A stretch of 64,000 nt of DNA from Planctomycetota bacterium (GTDB lineage: Bacteria; Planctomycetota; MHYJ01; JACQXL01; JACQZI01). The stretch's first letter is position 1. The number at the start of each line of letters is the position of its first letter. Shown here one piece after another: positions 2,535 through 59,671 of the stretch. A program made the position numbers and the translations under genes. The stretch spans positions 62,001 to 126,000 of the forward strand of contig JACQZI010000008.1 of the NCBI GenBank assembly GCA_016207825.1, read 5' to 3'. The notes under the pieces were generated by a model. The model was not told the origin of the DNA. It ran no database searches and saw only the letters and a program-made list of their open reading frames with translations.

Positions 2535-2644
2535 TCCCGATTGCATCGGGAAATAAAGCGGAGCAGGGCAGAGAACACAGAAGGGAAAATGGTCGGGGCG
2601 GTCCCGATTGGAATCGGGATGACCTTCCCGAAGTCACATCGGGA
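2535..2644. repeat. Three dispersed CCCGA-n-TCGGG palindromes
   Basis: Three short perfect hairpins stand in a row: TCCCGATTGCATCGGGA at 2535-2551, TCCCGATTGGAATCGGGA at 2602-2619 and TCCCGAAGTCACATCGGGA at 2626-2644. The same core recurs at 8969-8988, 42942-42965, 43855-43873, 50592-50611 and 59652-59671, and inside murB. They lie between dusB and tRNA-Pro, where they may also act as transcription or processing signals. Confidence 0.75.
2587..2601 (-). repeat. 15-bp direct copy of the tRNA-Pro 3' end
   Basis: AAATGGTCGGGGCGG at 2587-2601 is an exact copy of 2683-2697, which holds the last bases of tRNA-Pro including the encoded CCA. A copy of a tRNA 3' end on the downstream side resembles the remnant of an integration or a partial tandem duplication. 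No integrase is nearby, so the origin is open. Confidence 0.6.
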
Positions 2645-10350: not shown

Positions 10351-11286
10351 TTACCACATTTCGATTTCGGGTTCCAATGATATATTGAACTTGGTTTTGA
10401 CAACGTTTTGGATGTGGTTAATCAGGTTGGTGATATCTTCTGACTTTGCGTTGCCTGTATTTATGATATAATTGGCGTGTTTTTCGGAGACTTTGGCTCC
10501 GCCGATAGCATAGCCTTTCAATCCTGTTTGGTCAATAAGTTTTCCTGCCCCGACGCTTTCGGTCGGGACGTTCCCGAAATTATCGGGACTTCCGCTGGTC
10601 GCGCTTCGCGCCGGATTCTTGAATACGCATCCGGCGCTTTTATCCGCCAGCGGTTGTAATAGGTTCTTTTCCTCAAGTATTTTCTGGAAGCGGTTTTTTA
10701 ATTCATCAGGAGTTGCCCCATTCAACCGGAAATTGGCGGACAAGATGACATTCTTGCCTTTTAAGGAAGATGTGCGATAGCCGAATGTCAGCTTGGATTT
10801 ATCAATGAGCGATTCTTCACCGAAACGGTTTAATATGATGACCGAAGCCAGATAATCGCTGATATTACCGTATTTGCCTCCGGCATTCATTGCCACCGCG
10901 CCGCCGATAGAGCCCGGGATGCCGGCTAATACTTCAAATCCCTGCAATCCGGCGCTGATACATTTGTTTATCAGGTGCGATAGTCCATATCCTGCTTCCA
11001 CTTCAATATTTTTGCCGCTGATATTGAGCCCGGTAAGGTTTGTTTTTATAACGATTCCCTTAACGCCTTTATCAGAGACAAGCAGGTTAGTTCCATTGCC
11101 GAGTATGTGAACGGGTAATTTATTTTCCCGGCACAAAGCGTATATTTCTTTTAGCTGGTCTATATCGGTAGGGGAGATAAAAACTTCGGCAGGACCGCCG
11201 ATTCCAAACGAGGTATGCTTGGACAGCGGTTCATTAAACCGAGTGATTTTTCCGTAAGGCTTAAATAATTCTTTTAAATCGGTCAT
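10351..11286 (-). CDS. murB: UDP-N-acetylenolpyruvoylglucosamine reductase, with a palindromic-repeat insert
   Basis: A 311-residue FAD enzyme that makes UDP-MurNAc for peptidoglycan. Visible are the FAD-binding LGNGTNLLVSDKG (63-75), AGIPGSIGGAVAMNAGG (121-137), the active-site FGYRTSSLK (168-176), SAGCVFKNP (217-225), GAGKLIDQTGLKGYAIGGAKVSEKHANYI (246-274) and the catalytic glutamate in LEPEIEMW near the C-terminus. Relatives run almost directly from FKNP to AGKLI; here about 20 extra residues (226-246) are encoded by palindromic repeat DNA. The lack of a serine-rich C-terminal domain marks the type II form. The start overlaps the murC stop (ATGA). All catalytic motifs survive, so it is probably active. 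Confidence 0.95.
   Translation of the reverse strand: MTDLKELFKPYGKITRFNEPLSKHTSFGIGGPAEVFISPTDIDQLKEIYALCRENKLPVHILGNGTNLLVSDKGVKGIVIKTNLTGLNISGKNIEVEAGYGLSHLINKCISAGLQGFEVLAGIPGSIGGAVAMNAGGKYGNISDYLASVIILNRFGEESLIDKSKLTFGYRTSSLKGKNVILSANFRLNGATPDELKNRFQKILEEKNLLQPLADKSAGCVFKNPARSATSGSPDNFGNVPTESVGAGKLIDQTGLKGYAIGGAKVSEKHANYIINTGNAKSEDITNLINHIQNVVKTKFNISLEPEIEMW
10549..10611 (-). repeat. Palindromic element inserted in frame in murB
   Basis: This stretch encodes residues 226-246 of MurB and consists of three small hairpins: GCGAAGCGC-type, TCCCGATAATTTCGGGA and GTCCCGACCGAAAGCGTCGGG-like. The last two match the CCCGA-n-TCGGG family found in spacers elsewhere in the window. The reading frame is open through it. 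It resembles in principle the Rickettsia palindromic elements known to enter protein-coding genes. Confidence 0.8.
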
Positions 11287-12680
11287 TTTGTTAGTTCAAC
11301 CGCTATTTTCCAAACATCTCCTGCCCCCATAGTAATCACTGCATCGTGTTTAGTCAAGTGATTTCGGAGATGTTTTATTATTTCCGGAAACTTAGGGATA
11401 TAATAAGCATTGCCCCCTTTTTGGTTTATTTTCTCAGAGAGCAGTTTGGAAGAGACGCGTTTCTTTTCTGCTTCGCTGTCACGGGCGAAATAGATATCAG
11501 GTAAAATGACTTTATCAGCTTTGGAGAGAACATCAGTGAATTCATTAATTAAGCATCTTGTCCGGTGCGCCTGATGAGGTTGGAAAACCAGGCATATTTG
11601 CTTATCAGGATACAAGCCCCGCGCGGCATTTAATGTGGCCTTTATTTCGGTGGGGTGGTGCCCGTAGTCGTCTATGACCAGAGCGCCGTTAAAAGCTCCG
11701 TGGTATTGGAAACGCCTCCCAACCCCGCTGAATTTATCCAGCGCTTGCCTGACTCTGTTTTTATTTAGTTTGAGATGATGGGTAACTGCCAAGACGGCCA
11801 AGGCATTATAGATATTATGTATTCCCTGGATGTGGAGTGAGAAACGGCTGTAGGGTTTCTTATGATATAATGCCTTAAAATACCATTTCCCATTCTTTAG
11901 TTTGATATCAGTTGCGCGCCAGTCGCATTTTTCGCTTAAGCCGAAGCTGATGATTTTACGTTTGAGGCCGGCGATTGCCTTTCCGGTATTCTTGTCATCG
12001 CCGTTTGCGATGATTATTCCGTCATTCGGAACACGTCCGGCAAAAAACCTGAATGATTTAATGATGTTGGATAAATTCTTATAATAATCCAGGTGATCCG
12101 CTTCGATATTAGTGATAACGGCGATTTTATAAAATAAGCTGTGGAATGAACGGTCGTATTCGCAGGCTTCGCTGACAAAGAAATCGCCTTTATCCACATG
12201 CGCGCTTGCTTTTAAATCAGTCACATACCCTCCGATGACGAATGACGGTTTTTCACCGGCATGGCTTAAGGTATATGCCAATAAGGAACTGGTGGTGGTT
12301 TTTCCATGGCATCCGGCGACGGCAATTCCGTATTTTTCGCGCATGAGAAGCCCAACCATTTGTGCGTATTTCAGTATAGGTATGTTAAACTCTTTTGCCC
12401 TGATTATTTCCGGGTTGGTATTAGTTATGGCGGCTGATTTGACCACGAGGCAACAGCGCCGGTTAATATTTTTTGATGCATGTCCGATATGCACTTTTAT
12501 CCCTTTAGCTTTAAGCGCTTGAAGAGCAGGAGATGCTTGCATATCAGAGCCGGTAACTTTGTAGCCGCGCTGGATTAAACAGCCTGCCAGTCCACACATC
12601 CCGGTTCCGCCTATGCCGATAAGGTGGATAAGGCCGTTTCTTTCAAGATTTAAAGTCGACGAATCTTTTAACCGTTTCAT
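11283..12680 (-). CDS. murC: UDP-N-acetylmuramate--L-alanine ligase
   Basis: A 465-residue Mur ligase that adds the first amino acid of the peptidoglycan stem. Three domains are seen: the UDP-binding Rossmann domain (HLIGIGGTGMCGLAGCLIQRGYKVTGSD, 19-46), the ATPase domain with P-loop AGCHGKTTTSSLLAYTL near 117-133 and TNIEADHLDYY near 190, and the C-terminal domain with IDDYGHHPTEIKATL near 340. Length is standard. It shares one base with the HEAT/TPR gene before it and four with murB after it, so the three are likely co-translated. Confidence 0.97.
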   Translation of the reverse strand: MKRLKDSSTLNLERNGLIHLIGIGGTGMCGLAGCLIQRGYKVTGSDMQASPALQALKAKGIKVHIGHASKNINRRCCLVVKSAAITNTNPEIIRAKEFNIPILKYAQMVGLLMREKYGIAVAGCHGKTTTSSLLAYTLSHAGEKPSFVIGGYVTDLKASAHVDKGDFFVSEACEYDRSFHSLFYKIAVITNIEADHLDYYKNLSNIIKSFRFFAGRVPNDGIIIANGDDKNTGKAIAGLKRKIISFGLSEKCDWRATDIKLKNGKWYFKALYHKKPYSRFSLHIQGIHNIYNALAVLAVTHHLKLNKNRVRQALDKFSGVGRRFQYHGAFNGALVIDDYGHHPTEIKATLNAARGLYPDKQICLVFQPHQAHRTRCLINEFTDVLSKADKVILPDIYFARDSEAEKKRVSSKLLSEKINQKGGNAYYIPKFPEIIKHLRNHLTKHDAVITMGAGDVWKIAVELTK

Positions 12681-25728: not shown

Positions 25729-25848
25729 CCCCGACGTAATGTCGGGGACGAGGCTCCCGCCTATAATGGCGTCGCCCTTCGGGACGAACCTCGCCCGTAT
25801 GGGCGGGATGTCCGCCTGTGGGCGACGCCCCGATACATCGGGGCGGCT
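25729..25848. repeat. Composite palindromic element
   Basis: CCCCGACGTAATGTCGGGG (25729-25747) is followed by ACGAGGCTC, then CGCCCGTATGGGCG (25792-25805) and CCCCGATACATCGGGG. The 16-base junction GTCGGGG-A/C-CGAGGCTC (25741-25756) recurs at 43867-43882, and the CGCCC-n-GGGCG hairpin recurs at 43882-43895 and 26798-26811. The block therefore looks like a chain of mobile palindrome units. Confidence 0.75.
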
Positions 25849-42854: not shown

Positions 42855-42965
42855 GAGGTTACAAGAAGTTACGGAGCAACCATTGCAACTTTCCGTAACT
42901 TTAATGTAACCTCATTAAGTAACCTTCTGTGTAACCTCCCAGCCCGAACGACCGAATGGTCGGGC
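42855..42965. repeat. GTTAC word array in inverted halves, ending in a CCCGA palindrome
   Basis: GAGGTTACAAGAAGTTACGGA (42855-42875) can pair with a later TCCGTAAC...GTAACCTC region (42891-42914), and further GTAACC words follow to 42938. The array ends in GCCCGAACGACCG-AATGGTCGGGC (42942-42965). It occupies the spacer between the hypothetical gene at 42970-43662 and the rplL promoter and may terminate transcription of that gene. Confidence 0.6.
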
Positions 42966-43662: not shown

Positions 43663-43702
43663 AATACATCTTCCTTTCTTATTGAGCCGGACACGGCTCG
43701 TT

Positions 43703-43807
43703 TTGAGCAGAACACTGCGCGCCTTGAGCAGAGCACTGCGCGTCTTGAGCAGAATACTGCGCGGTTTGAGCAGAACACTGCCCGGTTAAAGAGAAACATT
43801 CCTGGTT
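43703..43807. repeat. 21-bp tandem repeat array
   Basis: Four near-identical 21-base units begin TTGAGCAGA and continue A-CACTGCGCG or a close variant (43703-43723, 43724-43744, 43745-43765, 43766-43786); a fifth degenerate unit follows to 43807. The period equals two helical turns, so proteins binding each unit would line up on one face of the DNA. It lies in the promoter region of the minus-strand hypothetical gene. Confidence 0.8.
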
Positions 43808-43854: not shown

Positions 43855-43895
43855 CCCCGACATTATGTCGGGGCCGAGGCTCGCCCATGCGGGCG
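43855..43895. repeat. Composite palindromic element
   Basis: CCCCGACATTATGTCGGGG (43855-43873), the junction CCGAGGCTC and CGCCCATGCGGGCG (43882-43895) repeat the order of units seen at 25729-25805. Confidence 0.75.
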
Positions 43896-50571: not shown

Positions 50572-50591
50572 TATGAAAAATAATCGCCGGA

Positions 50592-50790
50592 ATCCCGACC
50601 GAAGCGTCGGGTTATCGGTGTGCCATAAATCAAGGAGCTTTATGAGAAACTGGAATTTAATAATTGTGAAGCGAAGCGCCCCCTACGGCCGAAGGTCCCT
50701 ATTATCTGGTGCCCTGTTCGGCCGAGCGCTCACGACGAAGACCGTAATGAAATGGAGCGGGGGAGTCCCGATTCTCATCGGGGGGATTTG
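50592..50790. repeat. Palindromic elements around and inside the 5' end of the Gly-rich gene
   Basis: TCCCGACCGAAGCGTCGGG (50593-50611) lies in the leader. Within the coding region, GCGAAGCGC-type (about 50669-50680), CGGCCGAAGG/TTCGGCCGA and TCCCGATTCTCATCGGGGG (about 50776-50795) hairpins encode the extra N-terminal residues before the hydrophobic signal segment. The units match the dispersed palindrome families. Confidence 0.6.
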
Positions 50791-52990
50791 TTTGGTAATT
50801 GTGTTTTGGTCATTGAAATTTGCGCCGCCTCTGGCGGCGGATTCCTGGTCACAGACGACCTTTACCGATGGAACATTTTCCGATACGGTGACATCTACCG
50901 GAGCGGCTGACGTTAAGTTGAAAAATGATATGGATATCAGCACCATCGGCAATGGTTCTGATGGTGCAATAACGATAGCCGCTTCCAAAAATATTAATAC
51001 AGATATTATTGCCTCTGAACGGACGGCCGCCGATGGCGTTAACTGGCAAATTTCAAATGATGTTGCTTCAGGGCAGGCTACGATTTCATCAGGAGTTGCA
51101 AGACCGAACGGATTTGCCATCGGAGATGAAATCATGATAATTAATCTTAAAGGCACATCGGGCAATTATGCCGGTGTGGGATTATATGAGTTTAAAAGAA
51201 TTACCGCGCTTCCTGATGGCACTTCTATTACGGTCAATTCTAATCTGACTAATTCCTATGACGGAACTACCCAGAAGATAATGGTCCAGCGCGTGCCGAA
51301 TTATACTGATGTAACTATTAATGGCGGTATTTCGCTTACCTGCAGTTCCTGGAATGGAATAACCGGAGGGGTTGTTGCATTTAGGTCTAATGGCATAGTC
51401 AGTATCAATGCTACCGGTTATATTGACGCGTCAGGAAAAGGATTTAGGGGCGGCACAGGGGTGGCATATAATGTAAACGCCCCGGCCGGGGAAACACATT
51501 TTGGGGGATTGTATAATTCAGGTGGGGTTCATGGCGCTAACGCTGTGGCTACTGCGAATCCGGGAGGCGGAGGAGGTGGCGGCGGTGCTTCAAGTTTTAC
51601 GGGTGCGTCAGGAACTTCCGGGTCTGCAGGGGGTGGCGGTGGTGGAGCATATTATATGGGTTGGTTTCCCAATGGCGGTGGTGGCGGTGGTGGTGGATAT
51701 GGTTCTATCGGCGTAAACGGCGCAGGGTTTACTATGGGAGCTTCGGCCTCAGGGGTTACTGGTGGAACTGGAGGTAATGGAGGTAGCGGTGCTTCGTATG
51801 CTTATGCAGGCGGTGGAGGCGGAGGCGGAACATATGGGGATTCTCAAACATTAAATAGCCATGCGTATTTAGGCGCAGGCGGCGGCGCAGGAGGAGGAGC
51901 TTTTAGTTGGGCTTCTGATGGCGGTCCCGGTGGTAATGGAGGAACCGGCGGCGGTATTGTTTTTATCGGAGCTAACCAGATTATTTGCGGTAATATTCTG
52001 GCAGACGGCGTCCCAGGAAGCGCAGGGTTAAAGGTTGACCGTGCGGCTCGTGGTGGTGGCGGTGGCGGAGCCGGCGGCTCAATAATAATCATGGCGTATG
52101 ACATACAAAATAATAATTTAATCAGGGCGAATGGTGGAGCAGGCGGAACTTCATCTACTTATGCAGGCGGCGCAGGCGGCGGCGGAAGGACCTATGCCAT
52201 ATATAATTATTTGAACGGTAACGCACCGACTCCAAATTATGCGGTTGGGGCATATTGCGTTGCTCCCGGCACATATATTTCACCCCCAATTACGAGCACC
52301 GTTTTCTATTGGGGCGTCTTGACCTATGCTAAGACCACTCCGGTTGGCACTAATTTGACCGTGGATATATTAAACGCCTCGGATAATTCACTCTTGGTTG
52401 CCAATGTTTTATCAGGGACTGCTTTGTGGGATACCTACCCCTCTACTTTTAACGGTATGACAAGCATTAAATTGAGATGTAATTTTTCTCCTTCAGGTGA
52501 TGGGCAAACACCGACCCTCTCCGATTGGGGAATACATTATACAGGCGGTAATACAACGGTTACCACGTCTAACTGGGCGGATTTGTTGAATGGCAATCCT
52601 GTTAAAATGGGACAATTAATTGCATACGTCAAATTTGATATGCAATCGGCAGGCGGAGCCGCTATCTGGAAACGTTTCCGCGTTGATAAAGGGGTGAAAA
52701 CATACGGCAACATTGCCTGCCCGGATAATAAAATAGAGGTGCAAGTCTGGTGCGAAAATACGGGTAACGGTTTATGGGATGCAGGTGATACATTTATCGC
52801 CAAAGGAAATTTCACCAATGGCGCCTGCTGGCTTAACATGAAGCGCTGGAAAGTAACGATGGCTTCCAGGACATATTATATTGTCTATGAGCTGTCAAAT
52901 GACATTGGCGGTGGCCAGAGGGCGGGAGTAAAAATATTAGATAGTAGTTATCTTGAATTTGAAAATGCTTCGTGTGTAGGGGTTCCTTAA
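50642..52990 (+). CDS. Secreted glycine-rich protein with shared C-terminal domain
   Basis: A 782-residue protein. AAGGAG five bases before ATG 50642 supports this start, although the frame is open for 23 more codons upstream. Residues about 10-45 are encoded by palindromic repeats, then the hydrophobic stretch VPILIGGICLVIVFWSLKFAPPLAADS serves as signal peptide. The mature start DSWSQTTFTDGTF matches the previous protein. A beta-rich part is followed by a Gly-rich region (about 310-560) with runs of six to eight glycines broken by aromatic residues; it does not keep a strict Gly-X-Y period. The last 230 residues match the neighbour's C-terminal domain and end YLEFENASCVGVP. Likely an extracellular adhesin or matrix protein. 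Confidence 0.85.
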   Translation: MRNWNLIIVKRSAPYGRRSLLSGALFGRALTTKTVMKWSGGVPILIGGICLVIVFWSLKFAPPLAADSWSQTTFTDGTFSDTVTSTGAADVKLKNDMDISTIGNGSDGAITIAASKNINTDIIASERTAADGVNWQISNDVASGQATISSGVARPNGFAIGDEIMIINLKGTSGNYAGVGLYEFKRITALPDGTSITVNSNLTNSYDGTTQKIMVQRVPNYTDVTINGGISLTCSSWNGITGGVVAFRSNGIVSINATGYIDASGKGFRGGTGVAYNVNAPAGETHFGGLYNSGGVHGANAVATANPGGGGGGGGASSFTGASGTSGSAGGGGGGAYYMGWFPNGGGGGGGGYGSIGVNGAGFTMGASASGVTGGTGGNGGSGASYAYAGGGGGGGTYGDSQTLNSHAYLGAGGGAGGGAFSWASDGGPGGNGGTGGGIVFIGANQIICGNILADGVPGSAGLKVDRAARGGGGGGAGGSIIIMAYDIQNNNLIRANGGAGGTSSTYAGGAGGGGRTYAIYNYLNGNAPTPNYAVGAYCVAPGTYISPPITSTVFYWGVLTYAKTTPVGTNLTVDILNASDNSLLVANVLSGTALWDTYPSTFNGMTSIKLRCNFSPSGDGQTPTLSDWGIHYTGGNTTVTTSNWADLLNGNPVKMGQLIAYVKFDMQSAGGAAIWKRFRVDKGVKTYGNIACPDNKIEVQVWCENTGNGLWDAGDTFIAKGNFTNGACWLNMKRWKVTMASRTYYIVYELSNDIGGGQRAGVKILDSSYLEFENASCVGVP

Positions 52991-57715: not shown

Positions 57716-59665
57716 ATGATTCAGCAATCAATGAGAGTGGTAGTTATCTGCATCATTATTTTAATAGCCTGTTTTAACGGGTTTATATTAACACAGAATG
57801 CTGAGGAAGAAGGGGTAGACGAGGATTTTATCGAAGATTTGGAGGGTTCGATAGAAGGATGGGAAGAAGAAGGGGAAGGGGCCGGTTTAGGTGAAGACCA
57901 GGGATTAAATGAGGATGACGGGATAGTAGAAGACGGGGAAGAAGAAATAGAAGAGCCGCTGCCAAAAGAACCTGTAAAACCTGAAGAGGTTATTCGCTCG
58001 TCGGATATTACGGTTTATAACCTGGATATCAACCAGATTGTGGCGCGTATTTGTTCGGAAAGGACGGGGAATGCTTCCAAAGGAGGCAAGGATGCCAATG
58101 GGATGCCTCTGATTATCTGGCTGGTTGATAATACTACTTATGTAAAGGATAAGAAATGCCACGAAGAGCTGTCCAAGGCTATTGATAAAACATTCCGTAA
58201 GGCTGGATCTTTTCAAATGGCGGTTGTCAAATTTTCCTCCAAGCCTGAAATAGTTGCCAAAGCCGATAAGGAACTTAAAAATGCCTGCAAGGCAATCAGT
58301 GAGATATGCCGGACGCCCGATGACAACCCGAAGGATTATTGCGAGGCAACCAGGTTTTGTGTCGAATCATTCAAAGATTATCCGCACAAAAAACACCTAG
58401 TCCTTTTTACGCTGCAAAACAATAACATAGAATATGATTTGGAAAAGACCCTGTCTATGCTCAAAGGGAATATGACGCTCGATGTCATAAGCGGCGGAGC
58501 GGGTTTCCAGGAGCATAATTTGTATGTATCAATACGCAAATCAGGCGGGCGTGTCTCGACTGATTCTGCGAATTCCGAGCTTCACAGGTATAGCCGCGCC
58601 GGTTCTTTTATCATCCCGCGTTATTTCCTTAATCAGTATGTCTCTTCCGGATATGGTTATTATGGCCTGGGCCGCCTGGCAGCCTATAGCGGCGGTAAAT
58701 ATTATATGTATTACCCGCCGGGCGGAGGGGATGCCAAATCTTTCTGCGAACTTCATAAGTGCATCTGGTGCGAGAAAAACCAGGCCCACGATTGCGGTAC
58801 TTCTTATACCAAGCTTTTCCCGGCTTTGGGGCCGGCGCTGGTTTCCCGTCTTTATTATGAAGAGCTTTATAAATCGGACCCGCTTTACCAGTTTATTAAG
58901 GACGAAGGCAAAGCGATTGGCGTAATGGGTAATATCCCGCGCGATTTAAAAACAATCTTCAGCGAAGGGAAAAAGGCCTCCGCGGCCGTGCTTAAGCAGG
59001 TGGAATCGGTAATCAAAAAATACGACGAGCGGATTGCCGAAACGGAAAAGGTGCTGGAAGAAAACCGGGGAAAAGGTGTTTTACGGTTCAGGGCGCACGC
59101 CATGGTTGCGCTGGCACAATATTATGTCGAGCGTTTTAACCTGGAACAATATAAGGCCTATTTAGAGCAGTTGAAAAAACCCAAGAACGCCAACTGGGAA
59201 AACGGTTATATCGTAGGAAATGCCGATTGCCTTTGCCACCTGGAGTTCGCTTTCAAGGATAAAGATGACTATATCAAAACCAATCTCCGGCAGGATTTGA
59301 AAAAATCAGTAAAGATGATGACCGGCCGTAAAGAATTCAGGTTTTATGTTAAGGACGAAGACGGTGAGGAAAAATTGGCTAAAGCACTTGAGGGGGTTGC
59401 TAAAATTATCGTCCAGTGGAAAAATACCCCCTGGGAATTAGTTGCAAGAAGGATTCCTTTGGTGATTGAATTTGACATCAGCTATTCGTTTGCCCAATCC
59501 AGGGCGCGCCGTTCAAAGCCGCCTCCGCCGCCCGTTACGCCCAAGCCTTCTCCGACCCCGACTCCTTCGCCCACGCCGACGCCAACCCCTGACCCGGCAC
59601 CTGCGCCGGCGCCTGCTCCCGGGCCTTCGCCCACGCCGACACCTACGCCTACCCCGACGAAATAG
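57716..59665 (+). CDS. Secreted VWA-like protein with acidic N-terminus and Pro/Thr tail
   Basis: A 649-residue protein. A signal peptide (MRVVVICIIILIACFNGFILT) is followed by a strongly acidic stretch (about 30-85), a von Willebrand A-like domain near 125-300 (PLIIWLVDNTTYVKDKKCHEELSKAIDKTF...FQMAVVKFSS...KHLVLFTLQ...MTLDVISGGA), a large helical region with a Cys-rich segment (CELHKCIWCEKNQAHDCG) and a C-terminal Pro/Thr/Ala-rich tail (about 600-649). The metal-binding DxSxS of VWA domains is replaced by DNTTY, so cation binding may be altered. The stop codon lies inside a CCCGAC-n-GTCGGG palindrome. Confidence 0.8.
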   Translation: MIQQSMRVVVICIIILIACFNGFILTQNAEEEGVDEDFIEDLEGSIEGWEEEGEGAGLGEDQGLNEDDGIVEDGEEEIEEPLPKEPVKPEEVIRSSDITVYNLDINQIVARICSERTGNASKGGKDANGMPLIIWLVDNTTYVKDKKCHEELSKAIDKTFRKAGSFQMAVVKFSSKPEIVAKADKELKNACKAISEICRTPDDNPKDYCEATRFCVESFKDYPHKKHLVLFTLQNNNIEYDLEKTLSMLKGNMTLDVISGGAGFQEHNLYVSIRKSGGRVSTDSANSELHRYSRAGSFIIPRYFLNQYVSSGYGYYGLGRLAAYSGGKYYMYYPPGGGDAKSFCELHKCIWCEKNQAHDCGTSYTKLFPALGPALVSRLYYEELYKSDPLYQFIKDEGKAIGVMGNIPRDLKTIFSEGKKASAAVLKQVESVIKKYDERIAETEKVLEENRGKGVLRFRAHAMVALAQYYVERFNLEQYKAYLEQLKKPKNANWENGYIVGNADCLCHLEFAFKDKDDYIKTNLRQDLKKSVKMMTGRKEFRFYVKDEDGEEKLAKALEGVAKIIVQWKNTPWELVARRIPLVIEFDISYSFAQSRARRSKPPPPPVTPKPSPTPTPSPTPTPTPDPAPAPAPAPGPSPTPTPTPTPTK

Positions 59666-59671
59666 TCGGGT
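59652..59671. repeat. Palindromic element over a stop codon
   Basis: CCCGAC-GAAATA-GTCGGG (59653-59670) contains the TAG stop codon of the VWA-like gene in its loop and right arm. It belongs to the dispersed CCCGA family and may have set the present 3' end of the gene. Confidence 0.6.

Follow-up and report, generated by a model that had tools for sequence, protein, structure and literature searches.

Short palindromic elements resembling REPs and Rickettsia palindromic elements (RPEs) very probably entered the cell-wall gene murB and other genes of a groundwater planctomycete and survived there in loops that tolerate changes in length. According to this explanation, CCCGA...TCGGG hairpin elements, a number of them headed by a GCGAAGCGGAGT-type sequence and sometimes chained, are scattered in the intergenic DNA of the order; a double unit would have entered murB just past the FKNP motif, adding ~17 codons in frame, and elements of this class would also have inserted into further genes of the genome, in loops of comparable tolerance. 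The window, a stretch of 64,000 nucleotides, comes from contig C8 of a genome (G000) assembled into 42 contigs with a total of 2.89 Mb, and it contains the single murB match found in a search of the whole genome.

The extra segment of MurB

The murB gene and the parts of its insert are as follows.

10351..11286, minus strand: murB, encoding UDP-N-acetylenolpyruvoylglucosamine reductase of 311 aa; Pfam FAD_binding_4 and MurB_C, both above cut-off
10552..10611, minus strand: extra segment, residues 226-245 (ARSATSGSPDNFGNVPTESV), from alignment with ~110 relatives
10601..10611, minus strand: mini-hairpin GCGC-GAA-GCGC at the upstream end of the insert, from sequence and fold
10572..10588, minus strand: hairpin TCCCGAAATTATCGGGA / TCCCGATAATTTCGGGA with GCGGAAG before it, coding for PDNFG, from pattern match and fold
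10549..10567, minus strand: hairpin CCCGACGCTTTCGGTCGGG / CCCGACCGAAAGCGTCGGG with ACGT before it on the minus strand, coding for (V)PTESVG, from pattern match and fold

The segment places 20 residues between FKNP (222-225) and GAGKLIDQ (246-253), compared to 3-4 residues between FKNP and GAGKLID in all six same-order MurBs, which is also the commonest spacer among the ~110 aligned relatives. Counted to AGxLID, the spacer is 21 residues here, 4-5 in the six same-order proteins, and 4 in 84 of the ~110 relatives. The alignment thus bears out the original prediction of extra residues after FKNP; its statement that the spacer is nearly absent in relatives is right for the close ones but not for a few distant lineages with loops of 17-31 residues at the same site (L079, L089, L091, L107, L019, and L029), nor for E. 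coli-type MurB, in which the loop at this place is longer still (~30 residues). Given these longer loops in a few distant planctomycetes and in the E. coli type, the site past FKNP is a naturally length-variable loop. Since the order relatives have a spacer of only 3-4 residues, ~17 of the 20 codons (51 nt) are extra, and most simply, the lineage of the window would have gained ~17 residues after its split from these relatives. The closest relatives of this MurB were found in metagenome assemblies of Planctomycetota (a Brocadiaceae-labelled Hainich groundwater bin and NC_groundwater_1514), and the nearest empty murB site available for comparison stands at ~52% protein identity, i.e., outside the genus or family. 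The Mur ligase gene adjoining murB (11283-12680) is probably murC.

On the coding strand, the insert reads GCGCGAAGCGCGACCAGCGGAAGTCCCGATAATTTCGGGAACGTCCCGACCGAAAGCGTCGGGG, in which a mini-hairpin with a GAA loop is joined by two CCCGA/TCGGG hairpins. The mini-hairpin can be compared to the GCGAAGCG head seen in other copies in the genome, the hairpin at 10572-10588 is close to GCGGAGTCCCGATTATTTCGGGG at C5:25294, and the hairpin at 10549-10567 has related copies such as GTCCCGACCGAAGTGTCGGGA; this resemblance of the two halves to different copies suggests two units lying side by side. The RNA fold of the insert has a z score of -2.7 when dinucleotide shuffles are the reference and of -2.8 when codon shuffles are. 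Long loops in the MurBs of other lineages, with codon-shuffle z scores from -1.6 to +0.9, show no unusual folding, and none was seen in the Phycisphaerae-like long loops that were checked.

The AlphaFold model of MurB has a mean pLDDT of 93.9 and matches the solved structures from Listeria, S. aureus, Brucella, and E. coli; the sole stretch below 50 is residues 229-237, inside the insert. The fold is therefore predicted to be intact, with these nine positions disordered. R171, C220, and E307, which we take to be the catalytic set equivalent to E. coli R159, S229, and E325, are retained and are invariant or nearly so among relatives, in agreement with the earlier reading that all catalytic motifs remain. 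The insert was also said to lie beside the active site, which is right in terms of sequence, as it starts six residues past C220, with the qualification that the model predicts disorder for this loop. Because only one murB was found in the genome, the insert-bearing MurB presumably works, with indirect support from the intact frame, the catalytic residues, and the confidently predicted fold. We propose that its product would stay functional because the element is GC-rich with mostly open frames and has a length that is a multiple of three, and because the loop is exposed and length-variable. The inserted peptide itself is probably without a function, and we infer a neutral change that arose when another element was copied into the gene.

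A hairpin class across the genome and the order

The pattern CCCGAN1-12TCGGG occurs 12 times in the window versus 1.05 expected, so the cores described originally as recurring in spacers across the window do recur. In the whole genome, it was found 221 times per strand versus 20 for the reversed control, with copies both between and inside genes. The following copies and clusters lie elsewhere in the window.

2535..2644: cluster of three CCCGA/TCGGG hairpins, intergenic, from pattern match
25730..25842: composite hairpin array including two CCCGA/TCGGG units, intergenic, from pattern match
42943..42964: copy CCCGAACGACCGAATGGTCGGG, intergenic, from pattern match
43856..43872: copy CCCGACATTATGTCGGG then GCCGAGGCTCGCC, intergenic, from pattern match
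50594..50611: copy CCCGACCGAAGCGTCGGG near the start of the open reading frame 50573-52990, intergenic if a downstream start is used
50767..50782: copy CCCGATTCTCATCGGG at a called coding sequence start, from pattern match; found again at the start of another called coding sequence, C8:176984
59653..59670: copy CCCGACGAAATAGTCGGG across the stop codon of the open reading frame 57716-59665, from pattern match; the TAG lies in its loop and follows a Pro-Thr repeat tail

The window also holds 21-bp tandem units TTGAGCAGAACACTGCGCG, repeated at least 4 times at 43682-43805.

Counts for genes and spacers cover 849 kb, or ~29% of the genome, read as stretches. Within this sample, spacers contain 67 hairpins versus 0.5 after shuffling and genes contain 21 versus 7.9 +/- 2.9, with a modest excess well within genes (12 versus 6.6 +/- 2.6), giving densities of 0.50 per kb in spacers and 0.03 per kb in genes. 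Hairpin pairs within 40 nt inside a gene were observed twice versus 0.05 expected. The eight order relatives (G001-G008) show ~5- to 20-fold enrichment of the same pattern. One subgroup of copies is preceded by the loose 5' head GCGAAGCGGAGT, and when 2 mismatches were permitted, the 17-mer GCGAAGCGGAGTCCCGA of this head matched 17 times in this genome and 36 times in G007, with 0 matches for the control in either. Units are ~20-65 nt long, sometimes chained, with the CCCGA/TCGGG stem common to all and the loop and inner stem variable, and k-mer enrichment of the spacers yielded no single dominant repeat. As the copies share mainly this stem and a loose head rather than a fixed sequence, common ancestry of all of them is not proven. 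The tested copies are open in 3 to 6 of the six frames, usually 5 or 6, versus ~3.6 for random DNA of equal length with the composition of this genome; since shuffled copies score almost the same, these open frames come largely from high G+C content.

How do such hairpins spread? Mobilization of classic GTAG-type REPs by a RAYT, that is, by a Y1 transposase, would be an obvious answer, as several copies start with GTAG followed by CGAAGCGGAGTCCCGA and the order relatives encode Y1_Tnp proteins. However, no GTAG consensus was found in the flanks of 188 stem ends; the tag is absent in many copies and, where present, lies ~12 nt from the stem instead of at its foot. The only Y1_Tnp gene of the genome is a truncated 94-aa fragment with no CCCGA hairpins around it, and no transposase able to move the hairpins was found in this assembly, which is 97.6% complete and hence may be missing a RAYT. 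Y1_Tnp numbers do not track hairpin numbers among the relatives either, with 387 hairpins and 1 partial gene in G007 compared to 186 and 5 in G002. On the grounds of the lacking intact gene and the discordant counts, we rejected this route, which we regard as unlikely.

A somewhat less likely explanation still is that the hairpins are functional regulatory sites for mRNA processing, attenuation, or protein binding, kept in murB by selection. The higher density in spacers of tandem genes (0.57 per kb, versus 0.24-0.34 in convergent or divergent spacers) and stems with variable inner pairs would fit such a role, but TTTT stands within 10 nt of only 4 of the 188 stem ends, the insertions in genes lie at differing depths, in unrelated genes and in different orientations, and murB of relatives shows no conservation at the same place. 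The scarcity of T runs also led us to reject intrinsic terminators.

The original prediction further held that the family is active or was recently active. A BLAST search with the whole murB insert returned no second full-length copy in the genome, so we rejected a fixed-length element or a recent duplication; the nearest other copies match it to 85% over 33 nt or to 95% over 22 nt. Recent activity is thus not supported, because the copies have diverged from each other. We consider it possible, though doubtful, that the family moves order-wide without a RAYT by some host process, repeatedly entering the same tolerant loops (e.g., before WPGNIREL in the expanded sigma-54 activators) and forming a continuing source of new protein segments.

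Filled and empty sites in other genes

Apart from murB, three or more genes appear to contain true insertions. The σ54 activator gene at C5:4129-6081 has a 33-nt in-frame copy, CGAAGCGAAGTCCCGACGAACGTCGGGGCTGAC, at a site where its paralogue at C8:300352 reads straight through from GAAATTCCCGAA to GTATCGCCC. In the activator at C11:35187, the same loop holds CCCGACGATAGTCGGGACTCCGCTTCGCTCCGC in the opposite orientation, and that at C12:10455 has a longer palindromic insert. This loop lies between HFLxK and ISPSAL, and the inserts at C5 and C11 consist of a head and a hairpin, in frame; further palindromes occupy it in another paralogue (L233) and in the relatives G003 (L239) and G007 (L242). 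The palindrome of L239 (G003 C21, same order) is a different one, CCCCCTTTTGCAAAGGGGG, which encodes part of SPHPPFAKGEKGG. A shortened activator copy with a deletion and a frame break, at C23:92226 (L225, C23:91000-94500), has the same 33-nt insert as C5:4357, and this sharing places the insertion before a duplication or conversion. In a second family, the ATPase gene at C5:168889 is longer by 21 nt, in frame, at the hairpin CCCGACAGTAATCGGG; its 80%-identical paralogue at C32:23966 lacks this excess. These paralogous empty sites are the strongest evidence for insertion. Together with the six same-order MurBs that lack the segment, such sites in two gene families agree with the original claim of a palindromic element placed in frame in murB.

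Not all matches inside genes can be read in this way, and that notion was rejected: most are ordinary coding sequences that fit the pattern by chance. Matches in SHMT-like, thiazole synthase, FAD oxidase, and RsmH genes, names that we assigned by reading the sequences, were rejected as insertions since the sequences look canonical.

Ordinary expansion of a loop by the usual indels, with the palindromes due to chance or codon bias, has the least to recommend it and is very improbable: other lineages do have 17- to 31-residue loops at this MurB site, but their loops lack the unusual folding of the segment in the window and its two perfect hairpins of the genome type, a hairpin pair is expected in a gene by chance only ~0.05 times per 849 kb, and other genes have the same insertions with empty sites in their paralogues.

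Several other features of this genome were observed. A 769-aa open frame (C8:218828-221137 in G000; 176828..179137 in the C8:42001 block) joins two proteins, presumably a Gfo/Idh-type oxidoreductase and a radical-SAM protein from their sequences, via ~60 residues for which TCATTGCGAG / CCCGA hairpin repeats code; the repeats may have created a fusion, or the frame may run on through a spacer that lacks stop codons. The sequence TGGCACGATATTTGCTATA, a fit to the σ54 -24/-12 promoter, is present in ten near-identical copies in the 849 kb (e.g., C5:12914, C5:19018, C23:91866, C8:128727 [+], and C8:170951 [+]), mostly 43-462 nt upstream of a called gene, and several of these genes encode large proteins that look secreted or surface located. 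With ~20 σ54 activator paralogues in the genome, these ten sites look like an expanded σ54 regulon. Identical leaders, GGCAAAACCTGTGCCCGCAAGGGCAGAACTCGTGCCCCGAAATTCTTCGGGGTAC, occur at C5:24547 and C5:47140; the former precedes a 230-aa protein (MAIIKGTNYLPQKDDDFF...), and a similar 230-aa protein is encoded elsewhere in the genome.

Relation to known palindromic repeats

GTAG and CGTC REPs, many of them inserted in open reading frames, are described for many species in a previous study (PMC3733652), with units or dimers coding for 20-30 residues within open reading frames of Opitutus, Thauera, and Rickettsia. In that study, RPE frames stay open and some RPE-bearing proteins are expressed, and REPs or GTAG repeats are reported in Planctomycetes, e.g., R. 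baltica (PMC3733652). The original prediction had set the murB insert beside the Rickettsia elements and knew of no such element described for this lineage; insertion of REPs in open reading frames was already on record in many species and GTAG repeats in the phylum (PMC3733652). The text consulted names the phylum Planctomycetes, not this lineage or the CCCGA hairpin, and our search of the literature on anammox or planctomycete palindromic repeats returned nothing beyond PMC3733652.

Like the hairpins described here, RPEs, including the CGTC-tagged RPE-4 and RPE-6, are short palindromes that lie both between genes and in frame inside them; they come from another phylum and, going by their description, probably differ in sequence, with no common consensus tag shown. 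The intragenic GTAG/CGTC REPs of Opitutus terrae, Thauera, and Rickettsia conorii are of the same size class, occur within open reading frames as dimers or groups that encode 20-30 residues, and are likewise mostly intergenic (PMC3733652); the GTAG or CGTC tag at the stem foot is not constant in the present elements, and there is no associated RAYT in this genome. The GTAG repeats of Planctomycetes are interspersed palindromes of the same phylum, compared here with the CCCGA hairpins by description. CGTC REPs are defined in the same text by a CGTC tag, an 8- to 9-bp stem starting from AT pairs, a 4- to 5-nt loop, and a CCA-like tail (PMC3733652). In this genome, stems start with CC/GG, loops measure 0-12 nt, and CGT precedes the stem in a minority only. 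RPE-like behavior is nevertheless seen, with in-frame insertions in murB, the σ54 activator, and the ATPase alongside many mostly intergenic copies. The same behavior without the GTAG/CGTC tags and stem features indicates that the CCCGA elements form a new sequence family within a phenomenon that is already known.

Palindromic insertions that keep the reading frame are familiar mainly from Rickettsia and a small number of other bacteria, and a groundwater planctomycete now shows them too, as a new lineage for this process. The ~20 σ54 activator paralogues in one genome, with empty and filled sites, allow insertion boundaries, orientation, and frame to be read directly. This genome is thus a test case for the spread of palindromes without an obvious dedicated transposase and a natural catalogue of protein sites that tolerate a new peptide.
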